Shown one piece after another: positions 37,101 through 64,000 of a stretch of 64,000 nt of DNA (position 1 is the first letter of the stretch; the number at the start of each line of letters is the position of its first letter). This DNA is from Ilex aquifolium. Its lineage: Eukaryota; Streptophyta; Magnoliopsida; Aquifoliales; Aquifoliaceae. The notes beneath the pieces are model-generated. The model was not told the DNA's origin. It was given only the letters and a program-made list of their open reading frames with translations, and ran no database searches. Both the position numbers and the translations under genes were made by a program. Where the stretch lies: NCBI GenBank assembly GCA_951799425.1, contig OX637396.1, positions 38,184,701 to 38,248,700 on the forward strand. The letters are read 5' to 3'.

Positions 37101-37311
37101 AATTAAAAGAAAGTATAATTAATTAATGGGTAAACATCTTATGGGTTTGGCTAAACCAACACGTGTCTAGTAAACCTGCACGTGTGTGCTATTCGGATGA
37201 CGTGGCAGCCTCATGTTTGATTTCGAAGAATCTTTTTGACAAAGATGTTACTAAACAGTGACAGGTAGTTTCAGATAGGGGCTTACGTATGGTTTGAATC
37301 ACCTGCAACAA
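34133..37311. mobile_element. Long inverted-repeat element (arms about 250 bp) with a nested TIR element
   Basis: The left arm is 34133-34338 plus 35595-35640. The right arm, 37066-37311, is its reverse complement; it ends ggtttgaatcacctgcaaca, matching tgttgcaggtgattcaaacc at the left. The loop 35641-37065 is AT-rich with no recognisable transposase. No target duplication was found next to the ends, so the element class is open. The right end lies about 130 bp before the leader exon of copy A and could affect its promoter. Confidence 0.7.
34330..35603. mobile_element. Nested Mutator-like TIR element, 1256 bp
   Basis: The element 34339-35594 has 43-bp imperfect terminal inverted repeats. Both ends begin GGGT and share TTAGACTTATTT. 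The flanks tacttttaa (34330-34338) and ttcttttaa (35595-35603) form a 9-bp duplication with one change. The intact opposite arm of the host element (37066-37311) preserves the empty site. The interior is GA/CT-rich and tgtaact-rich, like the element at 1-1180. Non-coding. Confidence 0.75.
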
Positions 37312-37439
37312 GGACTAGAATAAGACCACTCTTACAGGCAATGGACAGTGAGCTGTTATCATCAAAGAAATTCTGTGATGCCATGTCAGCAGATGTATGT
37401 CGAGAATGAAATATTGGTTATAGAGGATCAAAACCTTCA

Positions 37440-37630
37440 AAGAAGCGTTACATGCAACAACTCAGCATTTCAGCAATCTTACTTCAACACACTCTGTTTT
37501 TATGTTCAACTCTCTTCACTCCCATAGAAACACAAACCCTCTCTCTCTCTCTCTCTCTCTCTCTTTTGAAGAGCAGATCATTTTTGGTCTGCATCCCATA
37601 TCAAAAACCATCTAAATCATCACTCCATTG
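37440..37630 (+). promoter_or_regulatory. Probable promoter-proximal leader exon of MIP1-like copy A
   Basis: A CT run (37539-37564) is followed by a short leader ending ccattg/gtgagtttct. The same layout (caacaactcagca.., CT run, leader, gtgagtttct donor) occurs three times before copy C at 61.4-62.5 kb, which supports a non-coding first exon used by this family. Confidence 0.55.
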
Positions 37631-37697
37631 GTGAGTTTCTTGATGTTCAATCCGGGTTTGATTGAGTTTTTTTTTTCTCAGTTCTCTTATGTTTACC

Positions 37698-37832
37698 TTT
37701 GATTCTTTTAGATATCTGCTTGTGTTTGATTCTTTTAGATATCTGCTTGTGTTTGATTCTTTTAGATATCTGCTTGTGTTTGATTCTTTTAGACATCTGC
37801 TTGTGTTTGATTCTTTTAGATATCTGTTTGAA
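37698..37832. repeat. 27-bp tandem repeat, five units
   Basis: The unit tttgattcttttagatatct plus gcttgtg begins at 37698, 37725, 37752, 37779 and 37806. The units are identical except one base in the fourth and one in the fifth. It lies in the predicted 5' intron of copy A. No spacers, so not CRISPR. Confidence 0.95.
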
Positions 37833-37867
37833 TGCATGTATATGCTTTTAGCTGTAGAACTCCGTAT

Positions 37868-38641
37868 ATCTAAAGCAGGGGTGGTACGAGCTGTTTTGGG
37901 GCCTAAAGTGAGGATTCTAAGCAGTGTGTTTTTTTTTTTTTATTAATATAATTTTTATTTTTTAAAATTAACAATTACTAATAAATTTTTTTGTATGTTC
38001 TTCATGATCAAGAATTATTATATTACATTTTCGACTATCATTATAAAAATTTTATTTGTTATTTTTTCATCATATAATTTCAATATCTTCTAATTATTTA
38101 AGATATATCGCTTGTTCATTTCAAAACCTTCACTTAAATATTTTATTATATTTTTTATTACTAATAAAAAAATTTATTAAGAGATCTTTTTTTTTTTTTT
38201 TTTGTGATTCAATAAGTTTTTATATTTTTCTCTCTTTTTTTAAGTTCCTCATATTTGAATTGTTGTTTTTTAGTAGCTACAGTTTTTTGACAATCCAATT
38301 TTTTTTTTAAAATCAATCAAATATTCTCTATAAGAAAAAAAACTTAATAAAAATTAAATTTATAAAACAATAACACTTAATTTTATCATTAGTGTTCATA
38401 AAACTTAGGATATTTTAATGTGATTCTCCTTTAATATTATCTATAAAAAAATAAAACAAATAGAATAAGTTGATTGATACTATATTTTGTACAAAATAAA
38501 ATTGAAAAAGAGAAAGTGCAAGTATAAAATAATATACCGGGACTGATTTGATGACTTTTGTTGTGTGAATTAGAAAGACGGTCACAAGCCAAAGGGGAGA
38601 GAGAATCTATTATTTTATTTTTAGATGAAAGCAAAAATTAG

Positions 38642-38672
<31 letters not shown>

Positions 38673-39063
38673 AAGGGGTTGATGTTTTAACACGAGAGAC
38701 ATAAGAGAGAGTGTTTGATTGATGTAATTGACCGGTTAGAAAGAGTAATCAATGGTATTGATTATTGACTTTTTCATTTTTGCATGTGAGTCAAATAACT
38801 TTTTTTGTTTTTGTTAAAATTTCATATTTTTAATTAAATGGGTTGGGCCACAAACACTTTTGGGTTTTTGGGCCCAATTTTTTTAGAAATCTTTTGTTAG
38901 TTTGAACTACATAAGACTTTTTTGTTTGTACTCAATTTTATTTGAGTTTAATTTTTTAGTTTGAATCATATTGAAGACTTATAAAAAATGGGGCCTTTAT
39001 TTTAGAGGGTGCTTAAAGCGATCGCTTCTTCGGCCTAGTAATTGGGCCGGCCTTGATCTAAAG
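37868..39063. mobile_element. Non-autonomous hAT element, 8-bp target duplication ATCTAAAG
   Basis: The element 37876-39055 (1180 bp) begins caggggtggtacgagc and ends gggccggccttg. Read inward, both ends begin CA(g/a)GG. atctaaag flanks it exactly at 37868-37875 and 39056-39063. The interior is very AT-rich without transposase motifs and includes a gt/ga simple repeat (38646-38672). It lies in the 5' intron of copy A. Confidence 0.85.
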
Positions 39064-40180
39064 CCCATATCTAAAGTTTTATTTTTATTTGTTTATTTTA
39101 TTTATGTTTGATTGTCCACACATGTGCATGTGTTGTTTTCCTTTGTTTGGAAAGCAATTCTGATTCAATTTATATATCGATTCAGATCATATATACATAT
39201 ACTAGTTATTGCATGTGCCTGAAGGCACAATGTAATAAAAAATGGTAAACAATAAACATATTTGTATTCATATCCAAAATCAAATCACAAACATAGAGAA
39301 AAGATAAAATAATTTAAGTATCGGTTTGTAGTGGGGATAAGAGGTGGTGAGCGGCAGTGGTGGTGGTGGCGGCGACGACGACGGTGGTGGTGGCGGCAAC
39401 AACGACGATGGCGGCGGCGACGGTGGTGGTGGTGGGGGTAGGGGTGGTAAAGGTAGTGGTAGGGGTGGTAGAGGTAGTGGTAGGGCGGTTTCAAATACTA
39501 TTATTTTTTTAAAGTACTTATGATAAATAATTTATAGAAGTATTTTTAAAAAATCAATCCAAACACACTCTTAGGGCCCTATTTTTCCTATTAAATTTAA
39601 GGTGTTAATATTAACCATTAGATTAACTTTAAAGTAAAATTTAAAATGATCTCAACCGCGAATAGCTAAAGTCATTTTGTTTATCTTTTGAGATTTGAAT
39701 TGTAAGCTACTTTATTATATAGATATGAAAATCATACAAGCATACATACATATGGGTAAAATAAAAAATAAAAAAAAGTACATACATATGGGTGGAGGTG
39801 CAGATATACTCATTAAGTTATGTGTGTTTTGCCCTTGAATCAATTTCAAATTTTCAATTATATAACCTGAATTTTACTGAATTTAGAGTTTTTCTTTCTC
39901 TTATGTGATACTTTTGCTTTATTTCTCAATGTAATTTCATCCTTCTGTATATTTGTGTCCATGCAAGTAGATACAGGAACATGCATGCACCCATCTGTAG
40001 TTATGCTATATACACACACACACAATCTCTCTCTCTCTGGTTCATCAGTGGATGCATTTCTGTGTGTTACATGTTTTGTTTTTATACAGAGGTGAGTTGA
40101 TTACTGTATCCAATTTAATCCTATTCGCTTTATCAACCTCCTTCAATTTTGTATGAACATGTATAGCTAATTGTACTTGT
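39064..40180. other. 5' intron/leader region of copy A with a GGT/GGC trinucleotide block
   Basis: 39346-39486 is a purine-skewed ggt/ggc/gac block whose minus-strand His/Arg-rich ORF is an artefact. From about 39960 the sequence (catgcatgcacccatctg, an ac run, ttcatcagtggatgcatttctgtgtgt) is duplicated at 42470-42590 before copy B. Confidence 0.5.
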
Positions 40181-40281
40181 TTATGTCAGTGCGTGTATGC
40201 CTCTTGGAGTTCTTGATTTCACCCTTTTTATTTAGTTTCAATATTGATTTGTTTGTGGGTGGTTCTGGCAAAGGTGAAGAC

Positions 40282-42732
40282 ATGAGGACAAAAGGGAAGG
40301 GCAAAGCCAAACCAAAGAGATCTGTCAAAACCAGTGACAAAGCTGAATTTTCCAACTCTGTTGCTGATGTGAGTCAGAATCCAAGCAATGATTCATGTGG
40401 TTTAGAGGAACCCGAGATCATGAATTCACCCCCGCATCAAAATGTGAATTTAAATATGGGTGGATGGGGCGGCTACACTGAAGTTCAAATGGAAAAATTA
40501 CTGCATGTCAAACTTGAAGCAATATATCTTGAGGCTTTCCAAAACCTGTTGAATTTTGGATATCCTGAAGAAGTCGCCAAAAGGGCAATCTTGATGAGTG
40601 GGCATTGGTTTGGTAATATGAATATTATGACTAATATTGTGAACAATTGCGTTGCTTTTATTGATACTGGTAAGTTAATTGATAGTAGACTGGCTCTAAA
40701 AGGCAATAAAGGATTTGATGATTTACATGAGTTGGTGTTGTACTCGCTACGTGTTATGGTGAACTTGGTACAAATAACTCAGCCCAATATGCAGAAATCT
40801 GAAGCCATGCAACATCTGTTGGCAATTGATTTTCATGGGTGTCCAATTAGAGCCATATTCCCCCCTTACCCGCATAATGAAAATCAGATTAACAGTACCA
40901 TTTCTATTGATGGGTCTTCTGGCGATCTGAAGTCCACTAAGGAGCAAGAATGTGGCGGTCCTGACTCTTCTTATAGTGAGAAGAATGTGAAATTTGAAAA
41001 GAATGTTGGGGCACCATCACAGATTGACAGTACCATTTCTGTTGATGGGTCTTCTGGGGATCTGAAGTCCACTAAGGAGCAAGAATGTGGCGGTCCTGTC
41101 TCTTCTTATGGTGAGAAGAAAGCAAAATCTAAAAAGAAACTAGGGGTGCCATCGCAGATTAACAGTACCATTTCTTTTGATGGGTCTTCTGGGGATCGGA
41201 AGTCCACTAAGGAGCAAGATTGTGGCGGTTCTGACTCTTCTTATGGTGAGAAGAATGTGAAATCTGAAAAGAATGTTGGGGCACCATTACAGATTGACAG
41301 TACCATTTCTGTTGATGGGTCTTCTGGGGATCTGAAGTCCACTAAGGAGCAAGAATGTGGGGGTCCTGTCTCTTCTTATGGTGAGAAGAAAGCAAAATCT
41401 AAAAAGAAACTTGGGGCGCCATCACAGATTAACAGTACCATTTCTTTTGATGGGTCTTCTGGGGATCTGAAGTCCACTAAGGAACAAGAATGTGGCGGTC
41501 CTGACTCTTCTTATGGTGAGAAGAATGTGAAATCTGTAAAGAATGTTGGGGCACCATCGCAGATTAACAATACCATTTCTGCTGATGGATCTTCTGGGGA
41601 TCTGAAGTCCACTAAGAAGCAAGAATGTGGGGGTCCTGTCTCTTCTTATGGTGAGAAGAAAGCAAAATCTAAAAAGAAACTTGGGGCGCCATCACAGATT
41701 AACAGTACCATTTCTTTTGATGGGTCTTCTGGGGATCTGAAGTCCACTAAGGAACAAGAATGTGGTGGTCCTGACTCTTCTTATGGTGAGAAGAATGTGA
41801 AATCTGAAAAGAATGTTGGGGCACCATCGCAGATTAACAGTACCATTTCTGCTGATGGATCTTCTGGGGATCTGAAGTCCACTAAGAAGCAAGAATGTGG
41901 GGGTCCTGTCTCTTCTTATGGTGAGAAGAAAGCAAAATCTAAAAAGGCACCATCGCACATTAACAGTACAATTTCTTTTGATGGGTCTTCTGGGGATCTG
42001 AAGTCCACTAAGGAGCAAGAATGTGGCGGCCCTGACTCATCTTATGGTGAGAAGAATGCGAAATCTGAAAAGAATTTTTTTCCACCATTACAAAAGGAGG
42101 TTGGGTTGCTAAAAAGAGTAGATCTTATACCAACGTTGACATCTCACGTGAGACAGAAAGTTGCTCAGAGTGTAGCTGCTTGTCATGCAGAATTGGCGGC
42201 TTTAAGATTAAAAAGACAGGCATCTGCCAAGTCTTCCTTCAGCAATGATTTATCTGAAGAGCCTGATTTGGAGGAGGATGATTTGCCTGATTTGGAGGAG
42301 GGTGATTTGCTCCAGCATGTGGTGGATTCTGATGAAACGGAAGAGTTGCTGGAAAGCAACCCCGATGGTCCGAAGAGTGTGATGATATCCAATTTGGTAA
42401 AACCAATTGAAGAGCTCGAGAAACAGGTGGAGGAGGAGAAGGAATGGGCTCAAGGGAAAGTTATACATGCACCCATCACATGCATGCAGCCATCTGCAGG
42501 TATGCTATACACACACATTCTGTGTGTGTGTGTGTTGTTCATCAGTCGATGCATTTCTGTGTGTTTCATGTTTTGTTTTTATACAAGAGGTGAGTTAATT
42601 ACTGAATCCAATTTAATCCTATTCCCTTACCAACCTCCTTTAATTTTATATGAACAAGTAGAGCTAATTGCATTTGTTTATATCAATGCATGTAAGCCTC
42701 TTGCAGTTCTTGATTTCACCCTTTTTATTTAG
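40282..42732 (+). CDS. MIP1-like copy A: N-terminal domain and expanded 45-residue repeats, no RING
   Basis: MIP1/RF298-type proteins are plant RING E3 ligases with a conserved N-terminal domain, coiled coil and C-terminal RING. The frame from ATG 40282 gives 816 residues. It starts with a basic segment (MRTKGKGKAKPKRS) matching the position of the family start, then GGWGGYTEVQMEKLL, FGYPEEVAKRAIL and NIMTNIVNNCVAFI of the N-terminal domain (about 55-180). Nine 45-residue repeats (203-about 600) and an acidic segment (EEPDLEEDDLPDLEEGD) follow. The coiled coil stops at EEEKEWAQ, about 42452. The remaining residues translate what is leader DNA elsewhere, so the C-terminus is a duplication-junction artefact and the RING is absent. 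The frame is open further upstream (ATG 40183), but only the 40282 start looks homologous. A good donor (ctgcag/gtatgc, 42500) could end it earlier. It could be a RING-less regulator or a decaying duplicate. Confidence 0.7.
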   Translation: MRTKGKGKAKPKRSVKTSDKAEFSNSVADVSQNPSNDSCGLEEPEIMNSPPHQNVNLNMGGWGGYTEVQMEKLLHVKLEAIYLEAFQNLLNFGYPEEVAKRAILMSGHWFGNMNIMTNIVNNCVAFIDTGKLIDSRLALKGNKGFDDLHELVLYSLRVMVNLVQITQPNMQKSEAMQHLLAIDFHGCPIRAIFPPYPHNENQINSTISIDGSSGDLKSTKEQECGGPDSSYSEKNVKFEKNVGAPSQIDSTISVDGSSGDLKSTKEQECGGPVSSYGEKKAKSKKKLGVPSQINSTISFDGSSGDRKSTKEQDCGGSDSSYGEKNVKSEKNVGAPLQIDSTISVDGSSGDLKSTKEQECGGPVSSYGEKKAKSKKKLGAPSQINSTISFDGSSGDLKSTKEQECGGPDSSYGEKNVKSVKNVGAPSQINNTISADGSSGDLKSTKKQECGGPVSSYGEKKAKSKKKLGAPSQINSTISFDGSSGDLKSTKEQECGGPDSSYGEKNVKSEKNVGAPSQINSTISADGSSGDLKSTKKQECGGPVSSYGEKKAKSKKAPSHINSTISFDGSSGDLKSTKEQECGGPDSSYGEKNAKSEKNFFPPLQKEVGLLKRVDLIPTLTSHVRQKVAQSVAACHAELAALRLKRQASAKSSFSNDLSEEPDLEEDDLPDLEEGDLLQHVVDSDETEELLESNPDGPKSVMISNLVKPIEELEKQVEEEKEWAQGKVIHAPITCMQPSAGMLYTHILCVCVLFISRCISVCFMFCFYTRGELITESNLILFPYQPPLILYEQVELIAFVYINACKPLAVLDFTLFI
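40888..42066 (+). repeat. 135-bp (45-residue) coding tandem repeat, nine units in copy A
   Basis: Units start at 40888, 41023, 41158, 41293, 41428, 41563, 41698, 41833 and 41959, each beginning with the codons for I(N/D)STIS. The eighth is nine bases short, and the ninth runs into the following unique sequence. Odd units read GGPDSSYGEKNVKSEKNVG and even units GGPVSSYGEKKAKSKKKLG, giving a 270-bp higher-order period. All length changes keep the frame. Confidence 0.95.
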
Positions 42733-42760
42733 TTTCAATATTCATTTATTTGTGATTGGT
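42455..42760. repeat. Tandem-duplication junction between copies A and B
   Basis: At about 42455 the coiled-coil coding text of copy A (gaatgggctcaa) switches to sequence that matches the region upstream of copy A (catgcatgca..ccatctg, ac/gt run, ttcatcagt.gatgcatttc, ttgtttttatacag). This marks a head-to-tail duplication with a period of about 2.5 kb. A short ac-run/gt-run pair (42509-42535) can fold back on itself at the junction. Confidence 0.85.
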
Positions 42761-45700
42761 TCTGGCAAAGGTAAAGACAAGAAGACCAAACGGAAGGCCA
42801 AACCAAAGAGATCTGTCAAAACCAGTGAGAAAGCTGAATCCCCAAACCCTGTTGCTGATACGAGTCAGAATCCAAGCAATGATTCAGATGGTTTAGCGGA
42901 ATGCGAGAACATGTATTCACCCCCGCATCAAAATGTGAATGTAAATATGAGTGGCTGGGAGGGCTACACTGAAGATCAATTGGAAAAATTACTGTATGTC
43001 AAACTTGAAGCGATATATCTTGAGGCTTTCCAAAACCTGTTGAATATTGGGTACGCTGATGGAGTCGCCAAAAGGGCAATCTTGATGAGTGGGCATTGGT
43101 TTGGGCCTATGAATATTATGACTAATATTGTGACCAATTGCATTGCTTTTATTGATACTGGTAAGTTAATTGATAGTCGACTGGCCCTAAAAAACAACAA
43201 AGGATTTATGGATTTGTTTGAGTTGCTGATGTACTCGCTGCGTGTTATGGTGAACTTGGTACAAATAATTGAACCCAATTTTCAGAGATCTGAAGCCATG
43301 CGGCATCTGTTGGCAACTGATTTTCATGTGTGTCCAGCTAGAGCCATATTCCCCCCTTCCTTGCGTAATGAAAATCAGATTAACAGTACCTTTTCTGCTG
43401 ATGGGTCTTCTGGGGATCTGAAGTCCACTAAGGAGCAAGAATGTGGCGGTCCTGACTCTTCTTATGGTGAGAAGAATGCGAAATCTGAAAAGAATGTTGG
43501 GGCACCATCACAGATTAACAGTACCATTTCTGTTGATGAGTCTTCTGGGGATCTGAAGTCCACTGAGGAGCAAGAATGTGGCGGTCTTGACTCTTCTGAT
43601 GGTGAGAAGAATGCACAATCTGAAAAGAATCTTGGGGCACCATCACAGATTAACAATACCATTTCTGTTGATGGGTCTTCTGGGGATCTGAAGTCCACTA
43701 AGGAGCAACAATTTGGCAGCCCTGACTCATCTTATGGTGAGAAGAATGCGAAATCTGAAAAGATTTTTTTTCCACCATTACAGAAGGAGGTTGGGTTGCT
43801 AAGAAGAGTAGATCTTATACCAATGTTGACGTCTCATGTGAGACAGAAAGCTGCTCAGAGTGTAGTTACTTTAAGATTAAAAAGACAGGTTTCTGCCAAG
43901 CCATCCTCCAGCGATGATTTATCTGAAGAGCCTGATTTGGAGGAGGATGATTTGCCTGATTTGAAGGAGGGTGATTTGCTCCAGCATGTGGTGGGTTCTG
44001 ATGAAATGGAAGAGTTGCTGGAAAGCAACTCCGATGATCCGAAGAGTGTGATGATATCAAATTTGGTAAAACAAATTAAAGAGCTTGAGAAACAGGTGGA
44101 GGAGGAGAAGGAATGGGCTCAAAAGAAAGTTGCACAGGCAGAAAAAAAGGTCAGCCAAGATCTTGCAGAGCTTAGGATGCTGAGGATGGAGAAAGCAAAA
44201 AGAGAGCAGCTGAAGATTGACAACCAATTATTCGAGGAGGAAAGCATAAAGCAGATCATGGAGATGGAGAAAGCTATAAGAAAGGCTAATTGTGATGCTG
44301 ACCTCGCAAATGAAGCTGTGATGAAGCTTGAGACTGTAAATGCAGAGATTAGGGCAGACATCGAAGCTTTAAATTTGAGTGCATCAGAGTCAGACAAAGC
44401 CTCTCTGGTAGTCTTAAAGAGAGAAAAAAAGATCATCAAGAAGCTTGCAGCTTTGGACAGAGAGAAATGTCAGCTTCAAGAGCAGATTAAAGAAGAGAAG
44501 CAGAAGCAGGTGGAGATGCGGCAGGAATTGCTTCGGATCGAGAAAGCTCAGGAGGAAGCTAAGGTGAGTCATCCTATAGTGTTGAGACTAAACTAAATTT
44601 TTATTATATATTATATATATTCTGAAAAACTAAATTTATGCCTATCATTTGACTTGCTATTCACCAAACTATCTTATATTTCTGTGATGTGAATTTGTGT
44701 GGCATTACTTTCTCGGTATTCCTTTATGTATTGCTTTGTGGAGACTTTTTGAGCAGACTGGGTGAGATTGATTAGCTATAATTTAATTGACTGATCATCT
44801 CATGATCTGGGCAGCGCTACGACACAGTTATTTTCAGGGGCAGCATGCGTATAATCTACAAGCGCAAAGGACTCTCTAATATATTCTTCCTGAAGAGTTG
44901 TGGTATCATTTCAGATTTCATGCATAAATATCTGTTAGAGGCATGATTCCAGTCAAGTTCACATTGACTTCATCATGAGACTCATGACAAACAAGTGAAC
45001 CTACCAAATTGATGGAGATCATGCTTTGATGACTTTTCAATACTGCAGCGTGCTAGATTTGAATAACTTTTTGAATTTGGCTCAGCAAATACTTGGAAGT
45101 ATATTGATATGTAAGAGGATTTACACCGGAGGATAGAGTTGATGTGGTTCACTGCTTGTCACTCTATTCTCTGGTAAAACCAGCTTTTGTGTGGCTGTCT
45201 TGCCTTAAGGTGTTTTATATTAGATAATTACAATGTTAAAGTTGATGGGTGGTTACATGTCCCTAAATTTCATGAATATATTATTAATATCATGAATATA
45301 TTAGCCCTAAATTTCATGAATATCGTTTTTGCTATTATTAATATCATGAATATATTAGCCTTCATCTTGGATTTGAATATCAAAGCAAGACTGAAGAAAG
45401 AGTTGAGTAACTCGCCCTGTGACCGTCACAAGTGGGTGGTGTGGTGTCGCTTGGTCTGCCCTTTTAGCAGATCTTTCAGGTTTCTTTGCTTAATTGAGGT
45501 AACATTTTTGACATATTTCCCTCGTATGGGTTAGCTGTGATCATTAATGCTTATATGATGCACTCATCATTTGGATGCTTTGTTTGCTAACAATATTCCA
45601 TTTTTATACAGCATACTGCCTATATGACTCTTTTTCCATTTTTACTCTGTTATGATAATTTTTTTAGGCAATAATATCTCTTTCTAAATCCTAAAACACA

Positions 45701-48700
45701 TGTCTAAACTACGCCACTTGACAAGGCTTATGTCAAAATTTGTAGAAGTTACAATGTACCATGTCCATGTGAGCATAATTAAGACGGGAAATGAATACAA
45801 TACGACATGGATACGTGAACATGAAATCTTTCAAAAAATGTAGGACACAAACACGTCAAGGAAAGGTATGAATGATTGTGCCTTATATATGAATTTATAG
45901 AATTTGTCGCTATAAATAGATTTAATTGTAGTATGATACAAAATAAGAATATCATTACTTTGTGATTATGAAGCAAGAATACTTTGTTGAGGTCGACATA
46001 TTCGTATCGAATACTGTATCAGATACAATACTCATTGGATACTCAAGGATATATATCAGATACACTTTCTACGTATCTGGTAATAATAAAATATTTGGGT
46101 ACTTTGTGAATATTTTTGTAACGGAACCAAACCAAACTAAACCTCATGTTCCAATCATTCGGGGTCAGCTGTATGATTCCTTCATTGCCATTCCTTTCAA
46201 TCATGCGCTATATGCTCATTTAAGTTAAATATTTTCATATTTTTTCTTATTATTTTGTTCAATTTTAATTTAGTTCTACCCTTACTTCTAGTACCATTAA
46301 GAGAAATTATCTCACTTTTTCGAACCGGTGCCTCTATCGGCCTCCGTTGAACATGACCAAACCATCTTAATCTATTCTCTCTTAATTTATCCTCAATTAG
46401 AACTACTACTACCATTTCTCTAATACGGTCATTTCGTATTCTATCATTTCTAGTTTTTCTACACATCCACCTTAACATTCTCATTTCCGCTACATTCATT
46501 TTGTCACTATATTGTTCCCTAGTTACTCAACATTCTGTCCCATACAACATTGTTGTCCTTATAGCTGTTCAGTAAAACTTACCTTTCAATTTTATTAGTA
46601 TCCTTCTATCACATAATATGCTAAAAGTTTTCCTCTACTTAAGCCAACCGGTGTTGATTCTATGAGTTACATTATCTCCAATCTTTCCATCATTTTAAAT
46701 GATTGATCATATATATCTAAATTGTTTACTGGTTGGTATTTCTTGATTTTCAATCTTAACTTTTTCACTATGTTTACTTTTTCTATTACTAAAATTGCAT
46801 TACATATATTCAGTCTTACTCCTACTTATTTTAAATTCTTTCGACTCGAGTGTCTATCTCCAAATTTTTAGCTTATTGTTAATCCCCCTTCAAGTTTCAT
46901 CTACTAATACAATATCATCTGCAAATAACATATACCGTAGGACATCATCTTGAATGTGCCTAGTGAGTTCATCCATAATTAGGATGAATAGGTATGGACT
47001 TAGGGCTGATCTTTGGTGTAATCCCACCGTGATTAGAAATTCTTTACTTTCTCCTACGAAAAACCTAATTGTAGTCATAGTCCCATTATACACGTCCTTT
47101 ATCACCTCAATATACCTATTTGTTACTCATTTTCTCTCAAGCACCATTTATATTATATTTCTAGGTACTTTATCATGCGCCTTTTCTAAATCTATAAATA
47201 CCATGTGGAGATTTTTTTTCTTTTCTCTATACTTTTCTATGAGTGTCAATAAATATATAGCCTCCATAATTAATCTATCCGGCATAAACCCAAACTGATT
47301 TTTTGACACTGTAGTCTCAACTCTTAGGCGACGTTCAATGACCCTTTCCCAGGTGATTTGCATTTAATAGTTTCTCAAAATAGTCTTTTCACTGATCATT
47401 TATTTCCTCATTTTTAACTAAAACCTTTGAGTTCACGCCCTTAATGCACTTAACTTGATTAAAGTATCTTGTTTTTCTTTCTCTAATTTTAGCTAGTTTG
47501 TAAATGTCTTTTTCTCGCTCTTTATTATCTAGTTTTTTGTACAACTTGACGTAGGTTTTTAACTTGGCGTCTCTAACTATCTTTTTAACCTCCTTATTAA
47601 CTAATTTATATCTTTGGAAGTTCTCGCTATTTCTATCATTTTGCCATCTCTTAAATGATTCTTCCTTTGTTTTAACTACATTTTGTACATCATCAGTCCA
47701 CCACCAAGTTTCTTTTCCCCTAAGCCCTCTACAAGAACCACTTTCGAAACTTTCCTAATGTCTTCCGTCATCTTACTTCACATAACGTTAGTTTTATACG
47801 ACTAATGTCTCCTTTTTAATTTAATCTTTAAACATCTCCTTTCAAATTCAACTACTATACAAAATATCAACAAAAATTCATACGACTTTGAAGACACAAG
47901 TCTTTTTATGTTTTATCTGCTATTACATGTTAAAAGAGTATAAAATTAATATATTTATTCTTTTAGCAACAAATATTTCTAAACAAACTAACTATATAAA
48001 TATTAGTTTTGATTCTTTTAATTAGTTACTTCACTTTGTGAATATGCTATAATGATAAGATATATACTTTTTTTGAAATTAAAGGAAAAGTGTCAATTTT
48101 GCTTATTATGTTAAAAATTACCAAAATATATAATTATTAAGTCGGTAGATAATAGTAAAAATATGAAATGTATTTTACTATTAGACGTATCCTAGCTGTA
48201 CCCATATCCTACTTTTTTGGATTTTGTCGAATCGTTGTATTCATATCGCATCGTATTCGTACCCATATCCATGTCTGTGTTTCATACCTTTGTGATAAGT
48301 AATTTTTTTGTGGTAGTCCTCTAATACGATTTTCGCCTAATGGATCATTGTAGTCAGTAATCCTCATTTTTTATAGACAAAATATAGCAAACATATGTAA
48401 TTAATAATGATGACTCTCATCCTTCAACTAGAAAGATGGAGAGAAAAAACATATTGAACAAACAGACTATCCCTTTTATTAGTAAATTTAACATACAACT
48501 TTAACACAAGAAGTCTTGAACATATTTCTTTCGTAGTGAGATAGTGTGGAAGGTATGAAGTGTGATATAGTCATTTAACCAATTTTCAAAGTTTGTACAC
48601 ATATATTTTGTGGCTATAGACATGATCTAAAGAAGCATAAGATATGTCACCAAAGTAGTGTCGAACACATATACAAATCAAACCAAGTCTTATGTCCCAA

Positions 48701-51700
48701 TCATTTAGAGTCGGCTATATGAGTCCGTTTTCGACATTCATTTCGGTCATGCGCTATACGCTCATTTAAGTTAAATATTTTCATATTTTTTCTTATTATT
48801 TTGTTCAATGTTAATTTAGGTCTATCCCTACTCCTAGTACCATTAAGAGAAATTATATCACTTTTTCTAACCAGTGCCTCTATCAGTCATGTTGAATGTG
48901 ACCAAACAATCTTAATCTATTCTCTCTCAACTTGTCCTCAATTGAATCTACTCCTACCATTTCTCTAATACGGTCATTTCGTATTCCGTTTCTAGTTTTT
49001 TCACACATTCACCTTAATATTCTCATTTTCGCTACACTCATTTTGTCACTGTGTTGTTTCCTAGTTGCCCAACGTTCCGTCTCATACAACATTGTTGTCC
49101 TTATAACTGTTCGATAAAACTTGACTTTTAATTTTATTGGTATCTTTCTGTCACATAATATGTCAAAGGTTTTCCTCCACTTAAGCCAACCGGCGTTGAT
49201 TCTATGAGTTACATTGTCTCCAATCTCTCCATCATTTTTAATAATCGATCCTAGATATATAAATCGTTTACTCATTGGTATTTCTTGATTTTCAATTTTA
49301 ACTTTTTCACTATGTCTACTTCTTCTATTACTAAAATTGCATTGCATGTATTTAGTTTCGGATACATATCTGAAGTAAAATATATTTATTTCACCTTTTA
49401 ATTATGGGCATGGCTAAGAAAGTATCGAATGCGTGTCCGAGATTATCCAATAAGTGTTGGTGTTGTGCCACGTCACCTCTTTGGGAAAGTTCGTGCTTCT
49501 TAGGTAGTATAAAACAAAGAGATGCCAAAATAGTGTTGAGAAGAATAATTTTGTAGCTCTTGAAGTTCTGTAGGATTCCTTCTTAATGTTTCGATTTCTG
49601 ACAATCAAGAATTACCATATTAAAGTGCTGAAGGCGATGCACCAACATTAATTCTCTCAACCTAGTATTTGGTTCTAACAAACTTTCAAGATGAGTTGAA
49701 TTGTCCCATTTAGACATGTTGCGTTGCATACTAAGAGGACTTAGAGAATGAAAGGACATTGACTGCCACATTGCCTCATAAGTCATAAGTTAATGAGAGG
49801 AATTATTATATAGATCTCCCATATATCTTTCGCTTTCAACCCAATCAATAAAAGCCGTTAGCTTAGTTAGGATATTATGTACAAAATTTGTGTCAATTTT
49901 AGATAATTCAAACAAAATGGGGTCTATTTTGTAAAAATGCATTTTTTTGAGTTTGATCACTAGATAGAGAGTAGTACTATCTAGTTACAAGAGTTCAATC
50001 TAAAAGCATAACCTACACGAAAGTCTTAAGTTAATTTAATAAACTGACACCCTAAATGAAAATAATGAACCTTCAAATCCCTATTTGAACGAATTTGGAT
50101 TTATAAGTTTGAATATTTCCTAAAAACATTGCATTGAATTTACTCCTCCAATCTCGACGATTGAAGGAGTTAAATGTAGCATGGTACTATTGCATGAGAA
50201 TTCAATCGGTAGTTGATAATGGAAATAATTGCTCCATGCTTCATGAACAACTGAGTGTTCATTCCTACATCTAATGACATATTTAGTCGCAAAAGAATTA
50301 ATCTTTAGGCAATTACTGGATTTCTTTCTCAAAGTAGTGAAAGTGAAGATCATTGGTGATACAATCTATATTTCTACAACTGAAAATTAGTTTCATCACC
50401 AAAAGTAAAGGAATTCTCTGCCAAGAAAACCGCCAATAAAAGTATCCACTTGTCGCATTTGAAAGTTGATAGTCGGTGTCTATTTTTTTTGGGCAAAAAT
50501 GACAATATTTTCCAACAAAACTAGGTTAATCACAAGAAATGTGCTAGACTATCAAAACTGTTTTGTCGCTAAAAGAATTACAAATTGACTTTTTAAGCAG
50601 TGCTTTTAACTGGTCATTCTGGATATTAGGTTTCTCACCTGACTTGATAAGTTTGTCATTGAGGGGCATTTATTATTTATATATCTCAATCTCTAGTGAA
50701 GACCAGCTAGCAGCTTGATGCAATACAGACGACAAGAATTTTTGGTATTTTATTTAAACGTGGTCAATGTCGTTCAATTAGGAAATTCTAAAAGATTTTA
50801 TTTTATTTCCTAATTTTAGTAAAAAATATTTTATGTTATTTTCTAATTCAATTAAGATTTTATTTTATTTAGTTTCCTAATTTATTTGGGATTCTAGTTT
50901 TCTAGTTGCTTTAGAGTTTCTACTACTATTTAAAGTCTTGTAAGTCTTAGGGTAAAACAACTTTTGATTATTGAATACAATTGAGAGAGTTGTTTATTTT
51001 CTTCCCAATTCTTAGGAATCAACAAACTTATTGAAGTCTTTTGGACCGGTATTCTTTGAGAATTAACAGACTTAAAGTTTGAATCTAAACTGGTATTTGT
51101 TCTCAAATCAACGGTTTATTTTCATTATCCCTTTTTAGTCCATATACCTTTCTTTTTACTCACTTCCCAGCATTAGTGACCTATTGGCCTGGTCCCTTTG
51201 CCAGGTTGATGTCCAGGCCGATTTTAAAAACTATGGGCGGAAGGAGATCAGGGCCACTACTTGTGATTCGGCGAGCATGCTTGACTCCTTAAGTTGATGT
51301 GGAAGAATGTTATCTAATGACGGCAAATGACAGTGTTAACATCAAAACCCATATTAGAGACATTGTTTCCATTGATAATATAAAGGATAGATAATGGAGG
51401 TTCATGAAGATAAAGTTATTGTTGAAGTAATGCCGTTATATGAGAACTTGGATGTTTGGAGCTTGACAGAATACCAACACGAGCAAGACATAGAGTTAAA
51501 AGACGTGGAGGGAGATTGTAGTGATATTGGCGGGACTATTGACACGAATAATGGTGGGAAAGAAGCTTTCATCAATTTTTCATTAGGTCCTTCTAATACC
51601 AAGGCTCTTGGATCAAGTATGGGAGTTCTGTCTTCTAAGCCAAGGTGAATTCAAGCTCATATAGTTTTCCAACTGCATATGGTTACAGTTTTCACTCTTT

Positions 51701-54700
51701 CTATGGTGATCCATTTTGGTTTGAATTTTCACAAAAATATGTGACTAAGAAAGCTTTAAGTCATCTTATTTTCAACCCCTTGGAGATGGATGATAATGGG
51801 AGTAAAAAGTTGTGGTCATGGTCAAGACAAAAATACATGCGGATTGGTTCTATAAATCGTCTGCAAGCCATTAATAGTCAAACTTTCGGCATATCTAAAG
51901 GGTTCAAATTTTAGGGTGGTCAAAAGTATTTGCAAGTTCAAACAAATATCAATGGAACGGTCGAAAGCCTAAATTTAAGCGAAGATTCAAATTTCGAAAG
52001 GAATTCGAGGACAAAGTCTTTCCTACTGGAGGAGAATGATGAAGTACAAATGGCAAGATTTTTTTTTTTATTTGAACGTGATCAATGTCGTTCAATTAGG
52101 GAATTCTAGAAGATTTTATTTTATTTCCTAATTTTAGTAGAAAATTATTTTATGTTATTTTCCAATTCAATTAAGATTTTAATTTATTTGGTTTCTTAAT
52201 TTATTTGGGATTCTAGTTTTCTAGTTGCTTAGGATTTCTACTACTATTTAAAGTCTTAGGGAAAAACAACTTTTGATTATTGAATACAACTGAGAGAGTT
52301 GTCTCTTTTTTACTTAATTCTTCTGGTATTCTTAGAAATCAACAGAGTTATTGAAGCTTTTAAGACTGATATTTTTTATGAATCAATAGACCTAGAGTAG
52401 GAATCTAAACCGGTATTTGTGCGCAAATCAACGATTTATTTTCTTTATCCCTTTTCGTTCTTTATACCCTTATTTTTACCCGCTAGCATCACAGCAAGGT
52501 AAGAAATATTCCTCCAAGAATTATTTTCTTGTGAGTTAGCACATTTTGGTTGTGTCCCTTTATATAAGATACAGGAGTGAGACACGCTAAGAGCAAGGAT
52601 CAAAATATCGTTTCTGCGCATTGTTTCGGTCACCTAAAATTGGAAACGTTTTGAAAATGTTTCGAAAATATAATGAAACTGAATAAAAATTTAGGGATTT
52701 ATTTTCAAAACATCTCAAAGTATTGGTCTAAATATAGTTAAAGATCTTGAAATACCTCGAAACATTCCTAAACATTGGTAAAACATATTGAAACATCTGG
52801 AAAAAAATTCAACACTCCGAAATACCTCGAAATATTGGAATTTCGATTCAATTAATGATTCGTTTCGGTCTCCGTAGAAACGGAAATATTTCGGACATTT
52901 CGACACGATATTTTGATCCTTAACTGAGAGCTAAACAAATTCTAGCAACCAATTCCGTACAACATGCTTGTGCGTTCATGATCTTTTGGTTGTGCTCATG
53001 CACGACATCTTGGTCCAATAGATTCTTTACCGTGTTTTCTTTGTTTATCATTTTTCTAGGTTGCACCTCATGTTCCTCTTGACTTGATCTATTACTTGCA
53101 CATGTTGTCGTATGCTTCTTCAATATCGATCAGAGAATTGCCCCACCACTCTTCTATCATCCTTTCTCCCTGTTGGCACTTAGTGTTACTTTGCCTTGGT
53201 GCTGATGAATATTTTTCATCTAGTCTTGCTTCGTTTATTGTGATTTCGAAGCTTATAATTTTTGAGGCATATGTACCTCTTCTCTGTATTTGTGTTACCT
53301 TTTACTTCTAGATGCTGTGCCACGCTTAATGACAAGTATGGGCTATTCGTTATCTCTAGGCATTGTTCTAGTACGCAAGAATCAAAATTTCGTTTCGGTG
53401 CATTGTTTCGATCACCTAAAAAATGGAAATGTTTTGATCCGTTTCGAAAACATAATGAAAAAAAAAAATTCAAGAATTATTTTTCAAAACATTGGTAGAA
53501 ATATACCAAAATATCTTGAAATACCTTGAAACATTCCAAAATAATTGTGCAAATACATTGAAATATAACAAAACATTTCGAAACATTATGGAATACCTCG
53601 AAATATTAGAATTTCGATTCCATCACTGATTTGTTTCGGTCTCCTTGAAAACAGAAACGTTTCGGATGTTTCGAAACGATATTTTGATCCTTGGTCGTAT
53701 GGCATTTGAGTGCAAACTCTATGCAGGTGTGTGAGTGGGTGCGTATGTGTGAGGGTGCACATTTATTGTTTCTTTGATAGGATGAAGGTTTACATTTAAG
53801 GACAAACACTCTGCCATGAGAACAAAGGAAGCCGCACCATCTCCTTGCAGCTTTGCCTGCCACCCTTCGATGGTATAGTAGAATAAATCGCAAAGCCGCC
53901 TTTGGCCCTCCGCTTAGTAAACCCCTCTTCGAGCCTCTACTGAATTTTGATCGCTCTGGTCCTTAGTAGCGTTGACAAAGTCAACCTTTGGATGTTGTTG
54001 TGACCCTTTGGTTAGGGATGTTGGCTTGCCCTTTACTAGTAGGGGTCTACCAGAACTCGTGCTTTTATTCGACCAATCTCTTTCATAGCTGCGTTTGCTT
54101 TAGGTATTGTTAGTCAAATGTGTTGCGAATGGCTACGTGCACATGGATGTGTATGTTGGGATGCATGAGTTGTATTGTGTGTTTGCATCGGTGTAATTGT
54201 GTGCATGCAAGTGGGCTCATGCGGGTGTATGTCTCTGTGTGCATGCGCACCAGTTTGGATCTGTTTGGATTGTGAAAAAGTCTGCCTGAAATTTTTATTT
54301 AATGTGTATTATTGATTAAGCTGATAAATCTTTCCTTTATAGTCGATCCCAGATCCCTTGTGATTTTGCCGACTTCTTAACATCCCGCACCTTTGATATC
54401 CAGTGACCTTGTATTTCCAAATCCTTACAACTTATCCAAAACCAGTAGTCCATGTCCTATGTTGTGGTCTAGCATTTATCTAGGAGGTTTAAGGGCATAG
54501 ACAGCCCCGTCAAGTATCCTTTTGACGAATGCATCACAAGAACTTCTCTCCAGTTGAAGACTTTTGATGTTTCCTCCTAAAAGACCTCTAACATGATATT
54601 TGTACGTGTTTTTGTTCACCTTGTTTTTTTTCAGTCTTCTTTCTTGAGTTACTTGGAAGAAAGAAACATGAATGTAACAATTGTGAAGTGCGGAAAATGG

Positions 54701-56864
54701 AAATCGGATAGTTAGTGACATGAAAATTAAAGCTTCCACTTCTATAGTATACCTTGTTTTGGACTGAAGCAATATTTAGGTTGATAAAGCCCAGCCCAAA
54801 AAAAAAAAAGCAAAGAGAGAAATTGGCTTTCATCTTCCATCTTGTATGCCCAATTTGGAGATTGTTAATAGGCGCATGTTACATTAAATACAGATTATAA
54901 ATTTTTGACTAGTCTATAATTGTCAATTCTTAATTTCTTATGGCTATTGTGAGATATCAGCAATGCAGTTTAATGTAAGGAGGTAATGATCTCTTGTTAG
55001 TAAATGGTTTATATATTTTAGATATGTGTGAATTCATACCCAACAAGGCAGTGATTGTGGCATCTGTTATTAGGAAATTGTGTTAGGAAATTATTTGTCA
55101 TATGAAGTGATAAATCATTTAGAAGAGCATATATATATAGTAATTAATGGCTTTTATTTTACACGAGTATAATGTATACCTCATCCAAGTATCCTAAATT
55201 TCCAGATAGAGGTGGCTAGAAAATATAGATATTCCCACTTTTAGTATCAAATATGAGGACAAGACTGATATGGCAGTTTCTTTGCTCTAACATCTATTAC
55301 ATATAAAGAAATTCTTGTACACTGATGTAGTTTTGCAGTATTAGTAGTAACGTTTTCGAGACACATGCCTCTGCCATGGCCAAAAATAAGAGATCTGCCG
55401 CTGCCAAAGCCAATTGATTTTGGAGAAAGTTGTTGGGTCAGAATTGGTTACCAAAGGTGTAGTTGGCGTCTAGGATTTTCACTCTACGCAAAATATTTGT
55501 GCCTGGTTAAAAGGCAAAAATCAGATAATTTTCTTTGGTGCAACATGATATCTCTTGTTTTTCCCCGTTGAAAAGTGTCGCTGTTTTAATTTGCAATGGA
55601 GAGGTATCATAGACCTTTCTGGACTAAATGCAGATTCTCATTCTTCCAACTCCTGTGGTTATCAAGGTTTTTTGTTGCATTCCTACTTGTTTACAGTTAA
55701 AATTGTGATGTGCATACTCCGGTTGCCGAGATTAAAATCCTTTGCATCTGGGATAAAACTACCTACCAATGAGTGATACAGATTGTCATTATTGCAAATT
55801 TATCTATGGAGCACAATTAGTGATGACTGCATTTCTAGAGACTAGAGCTCTGTTCTGTAAATTCAGATAAAGTATTGGGAGTATATCTTTTTTCAAGTAT
55901 ATCTTATGTACTCAACATGCATATTTGTCTTAACTTTTTTTTTTTTAAAAAAATTTCCCTGTAATTAGATTGCATCGAGGGGTAAGGTACATAAGTCCCC
56001 CCTAGCCAGGTGTGATTCATTTTAAAAATCAATACAATTCTCTCATACCGTCGAGGTTCTATAAAAAAAATTCTTTTTTCCAAGTCTAGACTTTCAGAAG
56101 AGGCACTTGATTTTGGAATATTTTTTTATAGTAGATACCATAGTTTGAATGTGTACACACAGTGCTTTTCACAATTTTGAAAAGTACGGTGCATTTTAGA
56201 GAATACCATATGCTGTTCATGAATAATAATCCCTGGTTTTCTGTAAATTATGTTGATCATTTTTATTAGAAGCTTGGACAGTGACAGTCTGAAAGATCAA
56301 TTGTTTTTCATTCCTAATTTATCACCCACAGGACAATGCTGGACTTTATACAACTCTTGATTGCAGGTAAAATGGAGGCAAAATTTGGAGGAAAAAGAGC
56401 AGGCCTTAGCGCTACTTTCAGAGGAAAAGAGATTAAAGGCGGTAGCAGAAGCCAATTTAAAAAGAAATCTTGAGTCCTTGAACCAAAAATTGGAGATGGA
56501 TTCTAACCGTCTAAAGGATGATATACAGAGACTTGAGAATGAATTATCCCGTCTCCGAATCTGCGACCATTCATCTAGTAGCTCATCCCAAGGAATGTTG
56601 GATAGTGGTGACAACTGGAACAGCATGGTAATTCCTCCTGGATCATCTAGTTCACATGATTTTTCTGAAGAACCTATACGTGACAGGCTATGCGTAATCT
56701 GCTGGAAGAATGAAGCTTCTATTCTTTTCCTGCCATGTGCTCATCAAGTTCTGTGTGCAAATTGCAACGAGGATCACAGCAAGACTGTGCCTGTGGGAGG
56801 TAGATGTCCATGTTGCTATGGTCAGATTGAACAGAAAATAAGAGTTTATGCTGCAAGCTCATAG
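42686..56864 (+). CDS. MIP1-like copy B: RING E3 ubiquitin ligase, with an 11.8-kb intron
   Basis: A probable E3 ligase that transfers ubiquitin from an E2 through its RING. Exon 42686-44563 joins 56367-56864 in phase 0 (gctaag/gtgagt; ttgcag/gtaaaa), giving EEAK-VKWRQNLEEKE and 791 residues. In order: basic N-terminus, family N-terminal domain (GWEGYTEDQLEKLL, ADGVAKRAIL, NIMTNIV), three 45-residue repeats (about 232-366), an acidic segment, a long coiled coil (about 455-690), and a C3HC4 RING at 735-776 (CVIC, LPCAHQVLCANC, CPCC) ending IRVYAASS, as in MIP1. The start is uncertain. The position homologous to the copy A start is AAG here, so the upstream in-frame ATG 42686 is used, adding a hydrophobic leader (LLQFLISPFLF) that may not be real. 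The copy A region may supply its promoter. No stop or frameshift occurs in the body. Confidence 0.8.
43379..43783 (+). repeat. 135-bp coding repeat, three units in copy B
   Basis: Units start at 43379, 43514 and 43649, all of the GEKNA(K/Q)SEK type. The second is the most diverged (VDESSG, GLDSSDGE). The V-type unit seen in copy A is missing, so the alternation arose in A after duplication, or was lost in B. Confidence 0.95.
46130..47770 (-). mobile_element. 5'-truncated RTE-type LINE fragment (reverse transcriptase)
   Basis: Minus-strand pieces are typical of plant RTE elements: GKETWWWTDDVQ and the KIRERKTR region near 47460-47710, RT motifs NQFGFMPDRLIMEAI (47240-47320), LFADDIVLVDE (46890-46930, with the catalytic ADD), and the 3' segment RMLRWMCRKTR, RLRWFGHVQRRP (46320-46490). 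Several stops and frame changes separate them, and the endonuclease is missing. The 3' end (aatcattcggggtcagctg on the plus strand) matches the second copy. Confidence 0.85.
48690..49350 (-). mobile_element. Second RTE-type LINE 3' fragment
   Basis: It shares the last 0.65 kb of the element above: RFIYLGSIIKNDGEI, THRINAGWLKWRK, KFYRTVIRTTMLY, then SVAKMRILR, and the same non-coding tail (gcgctatacgctcatttaag). It is a separate 5'-truncated insertion in the same orientation. Confidence 0.85.
50730..52488 (+). mobile_element. Small LTR element with about 440-bp LTRs and a 0.9-kb interior
   Basis: Direct repeats 50730-51172 and 52051-52488 are about 85-90% alike by eye. Both contain gtcgttcaattagg, tttctactactatttaaagtctt and attgaatacaa.tgagagagttgt. 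Both end near agca. A purine-rich ggaggagaa lies just before the second LTR. The interior has no gag or pol motifs, so this is a non-autonomous element mobilised by others. No target duplication was identified. Confidence 0.75.
51394..51648 (+). CDS. 84-residue ORF inside the small LTR element, unknown
   Basis: An ATG-started acidic ORF (MEVHEDKVIVEVMPLYENLD) with SLGPSNTKAL near the end. A second open stretch (51645-51914) follows in another frame. No gag-like zinc knuckle or known domain is visible. It could be a captured gene piece or a decayed gag. Confidence 0.3.
   Translation: MEVHEDKVIVEVMPLYENLDVWSLTEYQHEQDIELKDVEGDCSDIGGTIDTNNGGKEAFINFSLGPSNTKALGSSMGVLSSKPR
52595..52921. mobile_element. 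MITE 1 of a gaaacg-rich family, 16-bp perfect TIR
   Basis: Begins aaggatcaaaatatcg (52595-52610) and ends with its exact reverse complement (52906-52921). The interior consists of degenerate gaaacattt/tttcggtc words. About 327 bp, no ORF. Confidence 0.75.
53376..53692. mobile_element. MITE 2 of the same family
   Basis: The left end aagaatcaaaatttcg and right end cgatattttgatcctt match the 52595 element with two changes. The interior order is the same (cattgtttcg.tcacctaaa; ttcggtctcc). Confidence 0.7.
53693..56366. other. Right part of the giant intron, no gene recognised
   Basis: 53700-54480 is less AT-rich (ccgcctttggccctccgctt, gt/gc-rich words near 54130-54250) and may be an old element of unknown class. 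The rest is ordinary AT-rich sequence leading to the RING exon acceptor at 56366. Confidence 0.35.
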
Positions 56865-58465: not shown

Positions 58466-61289
58466 GGGTTCTTATTGTGATTCAAATGGCGATGCTTCTT
58501 CATTTGTGGCAATATGCAGACATCAGGTGTACAAGCTACACAGTCTTCTTTTGTTTACTCCTGTTCTGGTTATCTTCCATATTCTCAGTGTACTCGACTA
58601 ATTTAAAAGTTTTTGTATAAGGGAGAAGGTATACATTTCGTTTTAAACATTTGGTGGGTTGGTTTTATATTTGCTTAGTACAATTTAAAGCTACTTAAAG
58701 ACTAATTATCTGTTTGGGCATTTCTATTTGTATAAACTGTTTGCTCAGTGCCTAAGGGAACATTTTCTGCTTATACTGGCTTGAGAAGAATGCTGCATGG
58801 AATTTTCTTCATCCTCTGAGTGTCTTTGGTTGAATTTTCTAAAGGTCCCTTGAATTCAAATTAGCTTCTAGGAACCATGCATGAAATAAATGCCTTGACC
58901 CATTTTTCCAGCCCCTTTTCCCTCTGGAGAAAAACCTGGTTTAGGAAACATACCCTGATCATTTTTTGAGAGTAATCCATTGGTATGCTAGTAAACTGGT
59001 TAGTGATTAGAACAAACTGGCAGTGGTAGGGAGGATTTGCTCAGCATAGTGCAAACTAGTAGATTGAGCTAATAAGTAATATACAGTGGTAAGTACTCTA
59101 GGTTAATGGACAATTATAGTGTCAAGATCATAGAAAAGACCTGGCTAAGACGCCGTGAAATTCAAATTGGAGTAGCAATTACATTGGTAAGATTTTTGGG
59201 GCTGCTTACTTTATCATCTGGTTGAGAATTCTTGATCCCATTAGTTTTAAGAGATTACAAACATACATCTGGGCCGTTTATTGGGTGCAGCAGCATTGAA
59301 ATGGTTGTGAAAAATAGATTTCAACAGAACGGAGAAGAGAAAATCACTCTATGGTTTTTTGTCAGGAAAGACAGCCATTAAGTGTTCTGCAAATCCTTCC
59401 TTAACTGACATTATCTTGTAGTGATGCCTTGTGTGTTGAATGTTTTGGATTAGAAACCTTCTACAAGTTCAAGGGAGTTGTTGACAACTCTATCCTGAAA
59501 ACTTTTAGGGCATGAAAGTATCTGATGATGTTAGTCATTATGCCTGTTTGGTCTTGTCCCGCATCAATAAAATAACACATCCAAGCTAGCATAGTAGTCT
59601 CGTGGGCCTCTCAATTATTGCCAATTGTTTTTTGTGTTTTAACACTGGATCAGATTTGGGCTTGGGGAGGGTTTGGGAAAAACTCAATTTGATCATGGAT
59701 TCTCCCATTGTTCGTGCCACCCCTATCTCTCCATGTGTGAGTGGGGGTTGCACGCATGGTAGAGTTTTGTAGCTTTTCCTACATCAACAACATTACACTT
59801 TCTAACCAAGGAGATGAACCTTGGGACCTCCCCAGTCTCCACCCGCCATCAACTCGTTTTGAGTTGGATGCTTAAACCCATTTGCACGTGCAGGAGACTG
59901 TTATAGCTGCTATATCAATAAAATAACACCTAAACTAATACATAAACCTTGTGAGCCTCTCTGCTTATTATCAATTGGTTTCGAGCTAGATTCTTTAACA
60001 ATAGTGAAACACGTGATAGATCAACAGGGATGACCACCCATGGCTAGAATTGTGAGGAGATAATATTTTGCTATATGTTGGTACATAGTGAAGGCTATTC
60101 TTCTACTTTGCAACTGAAAGCAACTAAAATATACTTGGTGATCAATGGCGATAATATAATGTCTACACATAGTTATAAACAACTTCTGCTCATAAAATAT
60201 TATCTGGACAATTGGTTGCACGGAATTATGATTTGTGTTTATGTGGAAATATAATCCACACTAAATCGCAAGACAGCGTAGAACTTACCAAAAGTGTGTT
60301 ATAAAACTTCTTATTATGTGTATCTTTTAGAAAAGGTAAGGTATTAAATGTTTCCTTCAAAAATGAAGTTTGGAATCTGAAGCACATAATTGTTCCGTAT
60401 CCAAATTACTTCCAAATCTAATATAAATTGTGTTGTCATCCATTATCATGATAGAAATAATGAAAGAGTTGAATGAAAAGTATGAGTTGTCAGTGTCTTT
60501 ATTGACTCGCTTTGAAAAATAGTAGGAAAAAAGTTCTACATTGTAATTATGTTTTTTCCAAATACAGATAGGAGCATATGATTCTTTTATGCTTTTCTTT
60601 TATGACAATTGAATTTAGTTCTATTATGGGAAAATTGAAGAGCGTGAACATCAATTTACAGATTGCATGTTAAACTTTGTTAGGACTCATTCAAGTTGAA
60701 CCTTCGCAAAACTAGACTCTCACCCTGGGTGATAAATATGATACCCCTTTGACCTAATACTCGGGTACTTCTATACTTTTGGTTCTGCTAAGCAATCCTA
60801 TGACTCATGATGGATGATGTTAAGGGGAAGTTAACCTATGTTGGACTTTTAACTTCTGTATGGATTGATTCAATTCTGCAAAAAAAGTTAAGACATTTAA
60901 CTTGGCGTCACAAAAAGTTAAGACATTTAACTTGGCATCAGTTTCTCCTAGAGTTGATAACAAAAGAAACCAATCCCAACTTAATCAGTCATGCATTGCC
61001 GCATCGTTGGCTCCACTGGCTAAAACTCCCGTAGGTGGAGAAATTAGAATTAAAGTAATGAAGCACCTTATATAACATGTCTTCAAAACTTGCACATGTG
61101 TTGTTATGCTTCCATATCAAGCTATAGTTAGGCGTTACACGGATCACCAATCTCTAGTTGCACATTGATGCTACCAGACAATGACAGGTAGGCTTGAATG
61201 AAGCGTTAAAACAGTAAGTTTCAGGTTTGAATGAAGCCTTATGCATGGTTGAATTCATTGACAACCAATACTCTAATATAATTAATGAG
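58466..61289. other. Intergenic, no gene recognised
   Basis: Two related segments near 59560-59640 and 59905-59985 (atcaataaaataacac.. then cttgtgagcctctc..attgccaattg) are a dispersed plant repeat. A 32-bp tandem duplication, aaaaagttaagacatttaac plus ttggc(g/a)tc, lies near 60881-60948. Short ORFs have no domains. Confidence 0.45.
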
Positions 61290-63958: not shown

Positions 63959-64000
63959 GAGGGGGTTGGCCTGATTGGGCACAAATGTCATGCCACACGG

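Follow-up and report, generated by a model that had tools for sequence, protein, structure and literature searches.

Does the predicted RING E3 ligase locus of Ilex aquifolium described here consist of two genes, each retaining what the other has lost, or of a single gene that has duplicated part of itself? In the 64,000-nt window that we analyzed (contig 6, 38184701–38248700; coordinates below count from its first letter, and all features of the locus lie on the forward strand), two related coding copies, A and B, stand side by side upstream of one RING exon. A preliminary description read them as complementary halves of a split pair. The losses and the junction that it took to be directly visible are present, and its coordinates are correct (ATG at 40282, RING-exon frame ending at 56864, self-BLAST borders). 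The split pair itself, however, is less likely, and an internal partial duplication within a single gene accounts better for the locus.

Anatomy of the duplicated locus

By self-BLAST, A (39979–42471) and B (42478–44140) are adjacent direct repeats, arranged head to tail with almost no spacer and ∼88% identical; A 39979–41293 matches B 42478–43784 at 88.4% identity and A 41695–42471 matches B 43376–44140 at 89.1%. The duplicated unit, whose copy A extends over 39979–42477 in the self-BLAST and the alignment, is ∼2.5 kb long and takes in the last ∼295 nt of the 5′ intron and the first ∼2.2 kb of the coding exon. Its left border is intronic, ∼295 nt before the acceptor of A, and its right border falls within the coding exon just past the first coiled-coil heptads, at a junction near 42471. 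Nucleotide alignment gives 88.0% identity in the intron, 88.4% in the exon ahead of the internal repeat and 92.5% behind it. An incomplete copy of one ancestral gene, with borders in an intron and inside an exon, is a partial internal gene duplication.

Other origins were considered and rejected. An assembly error in the form of a doubled-read artefact is unlikely because A and B diverge by 12% in the intron and 7.5–12% in the exon. We also looked for a separate ancestral copy elsewhere, using the B exon protein as the query. The own-genome matches, at least 13, fell in A (three), B (one), a third copy C (one) and four paralogs (two each), and among the best-scoring candidates no relative closer than the paralog on contig 5 was found outside the locus. 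Match counts for the B exon and the RING exon are lower bounds because only the best candidates were scored.

Exon A (40274–42499) has its ATG at 40282 and remains open to a candidate donor, CAG|GTATGC, at 42500; with this predicted end, its last 28 nt would be former intron sequence. It encodes a PIR2-like helical domain (40510–40830; PF20235, 48.4 bits against a cut-off of 27) and an in-frame 135-nt (45-residue) tandem repeat (40885–42075) of 8.9 copies with a higher-order 270-nt unit. The repeat also gives a match of 13 residues to PF19806 (DUF6289; 31.7 bits, cut-off 27.3) that is likely spurious. Only the first few heptads of a coiled coil (EELEKQVEEEKEWAQ) precede the junction, and A has neither the long coiled-coil segment nor a RING. 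The earlier view that A keeps the start and N-terminus but ends before the coiled coil and RING thus holds.

Exon B (42771–44563, donor AAG|GTGAGT at 44564) encodes a second PIR2-like helical domain (43001–43339; PF20235, 52.9 bits), 2.9 copies of the in-frame 135-nt repeat as single units (43376–43763) and a putative coiled-coil segment that aligns with the four paralogs. A and the contig-5 paralog both have ATG 8 nt behind the acceptor; in B, this position is occupied by AAG (42779–42781). This correspondence rests on the nucleotide alignment and the raw letters because protein alignments place the gaps near the start differently. Since the contig-5 ATG lies at the same distance from its acceptor as that of A, the start of A is apparently ancestral, as had been proposed, and the AAG of B is probably derived.

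An 11.8-kb intron (44564–56366), of similar length and in the same place as one in the contig-5 paralog, separates exon B from the last coding exon (56367–56864), which encodes the end of the putative coiled coil and a C3HC4 RING (PF13920 at 56682–56834, 44.1 bits, cut-off 27). The earlier description of B, with the coiled coil and RING kept and AAG in place of the homologous start codon, agrees with these observations. Solved sequences gave 12 matches to the RING exon (E up to 0.01), every one a RING protein and most of the IAP type. A RING query against the window and ∼30 kb downstream, run with a second RING for A or C in view, returned only 56361–56861 plus three matches at E 0.40, 3.8 and 6.7; over this range, a RING is present solely downstream of B. 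Within the long intron, open frames at 46197–46526, 47389–47754 and 49009–49401 resemble pieces of LINE reverse transcriptase by eye.

The putative 5′ untranslated first exon lies at 37500–37630, its start being approximate, with a candidate donor CCATTG|GTGAGT at 37631. It was placed by its match to the contig-5 paralog: 37539–37641 matches the 5′ region of that gene, which has four such units with comparable donors. Two ATGs, at 37452 and 37502, open short frames (60 and 37 codons) and would precede the starts of A and B if the first exon reaches that far, a point against a protein that begins in A and runs into B. A blastn search of 36000–39978 against 42478–64000 (low-complexity filter, E up to 0.001) did not recover the first exon or promoter region again near B; its one match, 61531–61653, lies before the decayed copy C. 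Because the duplicated unit begins inside the 5′ intron, the first exon and promoter region were not copied to B. The event is best read as a partial internal duplication within one gene, not as the origin of a complementary pair. The first-exon unit also stands in tandem elsewhere, with three before copy C (61270–62577) and four before the contig-5 gene (∼6176160–6176760), compared with one before A; a tendency to repeat first exons or promoters may characterize this gene lineage. An inverted pair (34133–34335 and 37110–37311, 93%) has one arm just upstream of the first exon.

Each of the four paralogs in the genome has one helical domain and one RING, and the RING exon has at least five own-genome matches, one per gene. 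The closest paralog, on contig 5, starts where A does and consists of a first-exon region, a single large N-terminal coding exon, a long intron and a RING exon; it holds about one copy of the 45-residue repeat versus 8.9 in A and 2.9 in B. A, B and all four paralogs pass the PF20235 cut-off, with the contig-5 and window genes the most divergent (44.6–52.9 bits versus 84.7–103.4 for the others). From its PIR2-like helical, putative coiled-coil and RING domains, the window gene appears to be a MIP1-like E3 ligase, with ligase activity predicted, of a family that we take to include Arabidopsis MIP1 (At2g35330), RF298 and RF4. At2g35330 is among the expressed Arabidopsis RING proteins tabulated in a wheat-germ study (PMC4641371).

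Copy C occupies 63510–64000 and continues into the adjoining stretch L010, to ∼660 bases past the window end. It contains a helical-domain piece (36% identity, E 1e-10) for which the profile search reported no PF20235 match. Behind this piece come a match resembling the coiled coil (E 0.001) and a further two that are weak; their frames differ and stops intervene. No RING for it was found over ∼30 kb downstream, and C is probably a decayed, much diverged third copy of the same gene. A 78-nt element nearby (62052–62129) recurs with 82–95% identity at six further sites, which lie on contigs 5, 6, 12, 13 and 102. Judged by eye, the neighboring frames are presumably a SLY1-type secretion protein (21697–23553, reverse strand), a C2H2 zinc-finger protein (30686–31852, forward strand) and, downstream of the window, a cytochrome P450 (L010 6145–8215, reverse strand). 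By its gene families, the window has the character of plant DNA.

Splicing potential of the A–B junction

Three GT sites between 42400 and 42720, at 42500, 42590 and 42692, score at least 6 of 9 as donors, each scoring 7, and all three are in frame with the B acceptor at 42771. The fused frames run to the RING stop with no inner stop over 1502, 1532 and 1566 codons, respectively. When the scan is widened to 42770, the GT at 42771 is the one further site that appears. The score is a simple consensus count, and the sites were examined once the junction was known. Across the forward strand of the window, 87 of 3558 GT sites score 7 or more; ∼0.31 sites of this strength would be expected in 42472–42700, itself an after-the-fact count.

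We favor the 42500 site, which would define a new A–B intron of 271 nt (42500–42770). The fusion predicted from it contains two PIR2-like helical domains, a coiled-coil region and one RING. The upstream intron copy reads TTATGC in place of GTATGC at this position and has no GT; at 42692 the upstream copy scores 5, and the score at 42590 is 7 in both. As the match to contig 5 does not start until 40112, there is no outgroup for the old state at 42500.

On balance, we think it probable that the locus is one gene with an internal tandem duplication, in which A and B are spliced into a single predicted protein of ∼1502 residues. The duplication and its borders, the open frame of the fusion and the absence of a first exon for B are directly visible, and a course of events that would account for them begins with a ∼2.5-kb internal tandem duplication reaching from inside the 5′ intron to just within the coiled-coil part of the large coding exon. 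The pre-mRNA would start at the sole first exon, at ∼37.5 kb, presumably from a single promoter. Exon A would be spliced in frame through the new intron to exon B, and B in turn to the RING exon. The product would carry two helical domains, ∼12 copies of the 45-residue repeat, one coiled coil and one RING. The start codon of B, dispensable after the duplication, would then have been lost. A transcript running from A through to B had already been suggested as one option; it is favored by the anatomy, since B lacks a copy of the first exon and promoter region and in-frame A–B splicing is possible.

Constraint and alternative readings

Outside the repeats, the 990 nt of exon aligned between A and B contain two indels, of 6 and 21 nt, neither of which shifts the frame; the 292 nt of aligned intron contain three, of 1, 1 and 2 nt (a 1-nt gap in the first column of the post-repeat alignment, due to the chosen cut points, was left uncounted). 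If indels were equally likely at every base, the chance that all three frameshifting ones would be intronic is ∼0.012. In 2000 runs of a neutral simulation of substitutions only, with drift at half the intron divergence, 2.05% left A without a stop and 2.1% left B without one. Both results speak for the single-gene reading. Over 321 codons, A and B have a Ks of 0.16, a Ka of 0.10 and a Ka/Ks of 0.62 (bootstrap 0.41–0.99). With the contig-5 gene as outgroup (322 codons), 58 changes are assigned to A and 51 to B, with 16 left unassigned; their split by codon position (21/19/18 in A, 15/21/15 in B) has no third-position excess. This and the A–B ratio indicate that constraint is weak, which counts against the fusion. 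Ka/Ks values against contig 5 are 0.66 and 0.56 for the helical domains of A and B, 0.52 (0.31–0.87) for the coiled-coil part and 0.40 (0.26–0.62) for the RING exon. The reading frame has been retained and the residues are held only loosely; selection on both copies is weak, and the tests of it gave mixed results. Because Ks to contig 5 is 0.43–0.57 over the helical, coiled-coil and RING parts, the duplication appears to be roughly one-third as old as the split from that paralog.

The alternative that survives best, although we regard it as unlikely, is that exon A is skipped. The first exon would then be joined directly to the B acceptor, translation from 42911 would yield 716 residues that include a single helical domain, the coiled coil and the RING, and A would be a passenger. 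The B acceptor (GGCAAAG|GT) is identical to that of A, 42911 is the first in-frame ATG of B with a frame open to the RING stop, and the leader ahead of it shows no coding constraint: the first 46 codons of B, coding only in the fusion, hold one synonymous-only difference versus 18 in residue-changing codons, a pattern that also counts against the fusion. Skipping would thus allow B to have recruited a new start, as was proposed earlier. However, three ATGs that are out of frame with 42911 precede it in exon B (42879, 42888 and 42901), and one of them opens a 23-codon frame overlapping it. Skipping is also difficult to reconcile with an exon A that has stayed open and free of frameshifts, and under it we would expect the ATG of B to be the one retained.

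Somewhat more doubtful is the possibility that the whole locus is drifting to loss and makes no important protein, its frame being open because the duplication is fairly young. The weak selection in both copies and in the B leader would fit such a fate, as would the decayed copy C next door. The Ka/Ks values of the RING exon and the coiled-coil part argue against it, as do 1502 codons free of frameshifts and inner stops.

An mRNA with a stop codon far upstream of an exon junction should be degraded under the rules of nonsense-mediated decay. The least probable reading is that the locus makes two products, with a RING-less A protein competing with the RING-bearing B protein, as the preliminary description had raised. 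In its favor, A offers a start codon, a helical domain that exceeds the cut-off and, if the A–B intron is retained, a frame running past the junction to a stop at 42730–42732 (816 residues). With ∼1.8 kb between that stop and the next exon junction downstream, however, the retained-intron mRNA should be unstable, and a RING-less product would require premature polyadenylation. None of five poly(A)-type hexamers tested occurs in 42473–42770 (a weak point, plant signals being loose), and B has no copy of the promoter region.

If the locus is a single gene spliced from A through B, a tentative extension is that it encodes a two-headed E3 ligase, in which one coiled coil and RING would serve two helical domains that bind substrates or partners and are diverging from each other, along with a long repeat spacer. 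Inclusion or skipping of exon A could then select between a two-headed and a one-headed enzyme, and the extra intron would derive from the gene's own 5′ intron.

Relation to known systems

If transcribed as we propose, the gene would clearly exemplify survival of an internal duplication that threatened the frame, achieved by splicing across the duplicated part. A single step would have altered the number of exons, the length of the protein and its domain count, and the old start codon would have become dispensable. The locus also carries a warning for annotation, as two adjacent gene "halves" may be one gene. It resembles MIP1-like plant RING E3 ligases in its PF20235 helical domain, putative coiled-coil region and C-terminal C3HC4 RING, with the N-terminal part and the RING in separate exons, but differs from them in that the helical domain, linker repeat and coiled-coil start occur twice before one RING.

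Partial internal (intragenic) duplication that takes in neighboring sequence is a class described by Katju 2012 (PMC3449122). The window case shares with it a single ancestral source, an incomplete copy and some neighboring non-coding sequence in frame. It differs in that the copy lies inside the same gene, where it is likely spliced to the rest, and is not a separate paralog. In Arabidopsis, rearranged neighboring genes give chimeric mRNAs, with tandem duplicates enriched (PMC6545605). In that work, the downstream partner is depleted of transcription-initiation chromatin states, and AT4G30570 is described with a missed start codon. Our locus resembles those cases on these points. The Arabidopsis chimeras are, however, two-gene read-through products restricted by m6A-assisted polyadenylation, whereas the window copies can be spliced in frame. 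Partial duplication and chimeric transcripts are both already well known; the window case would unite them within one gene.
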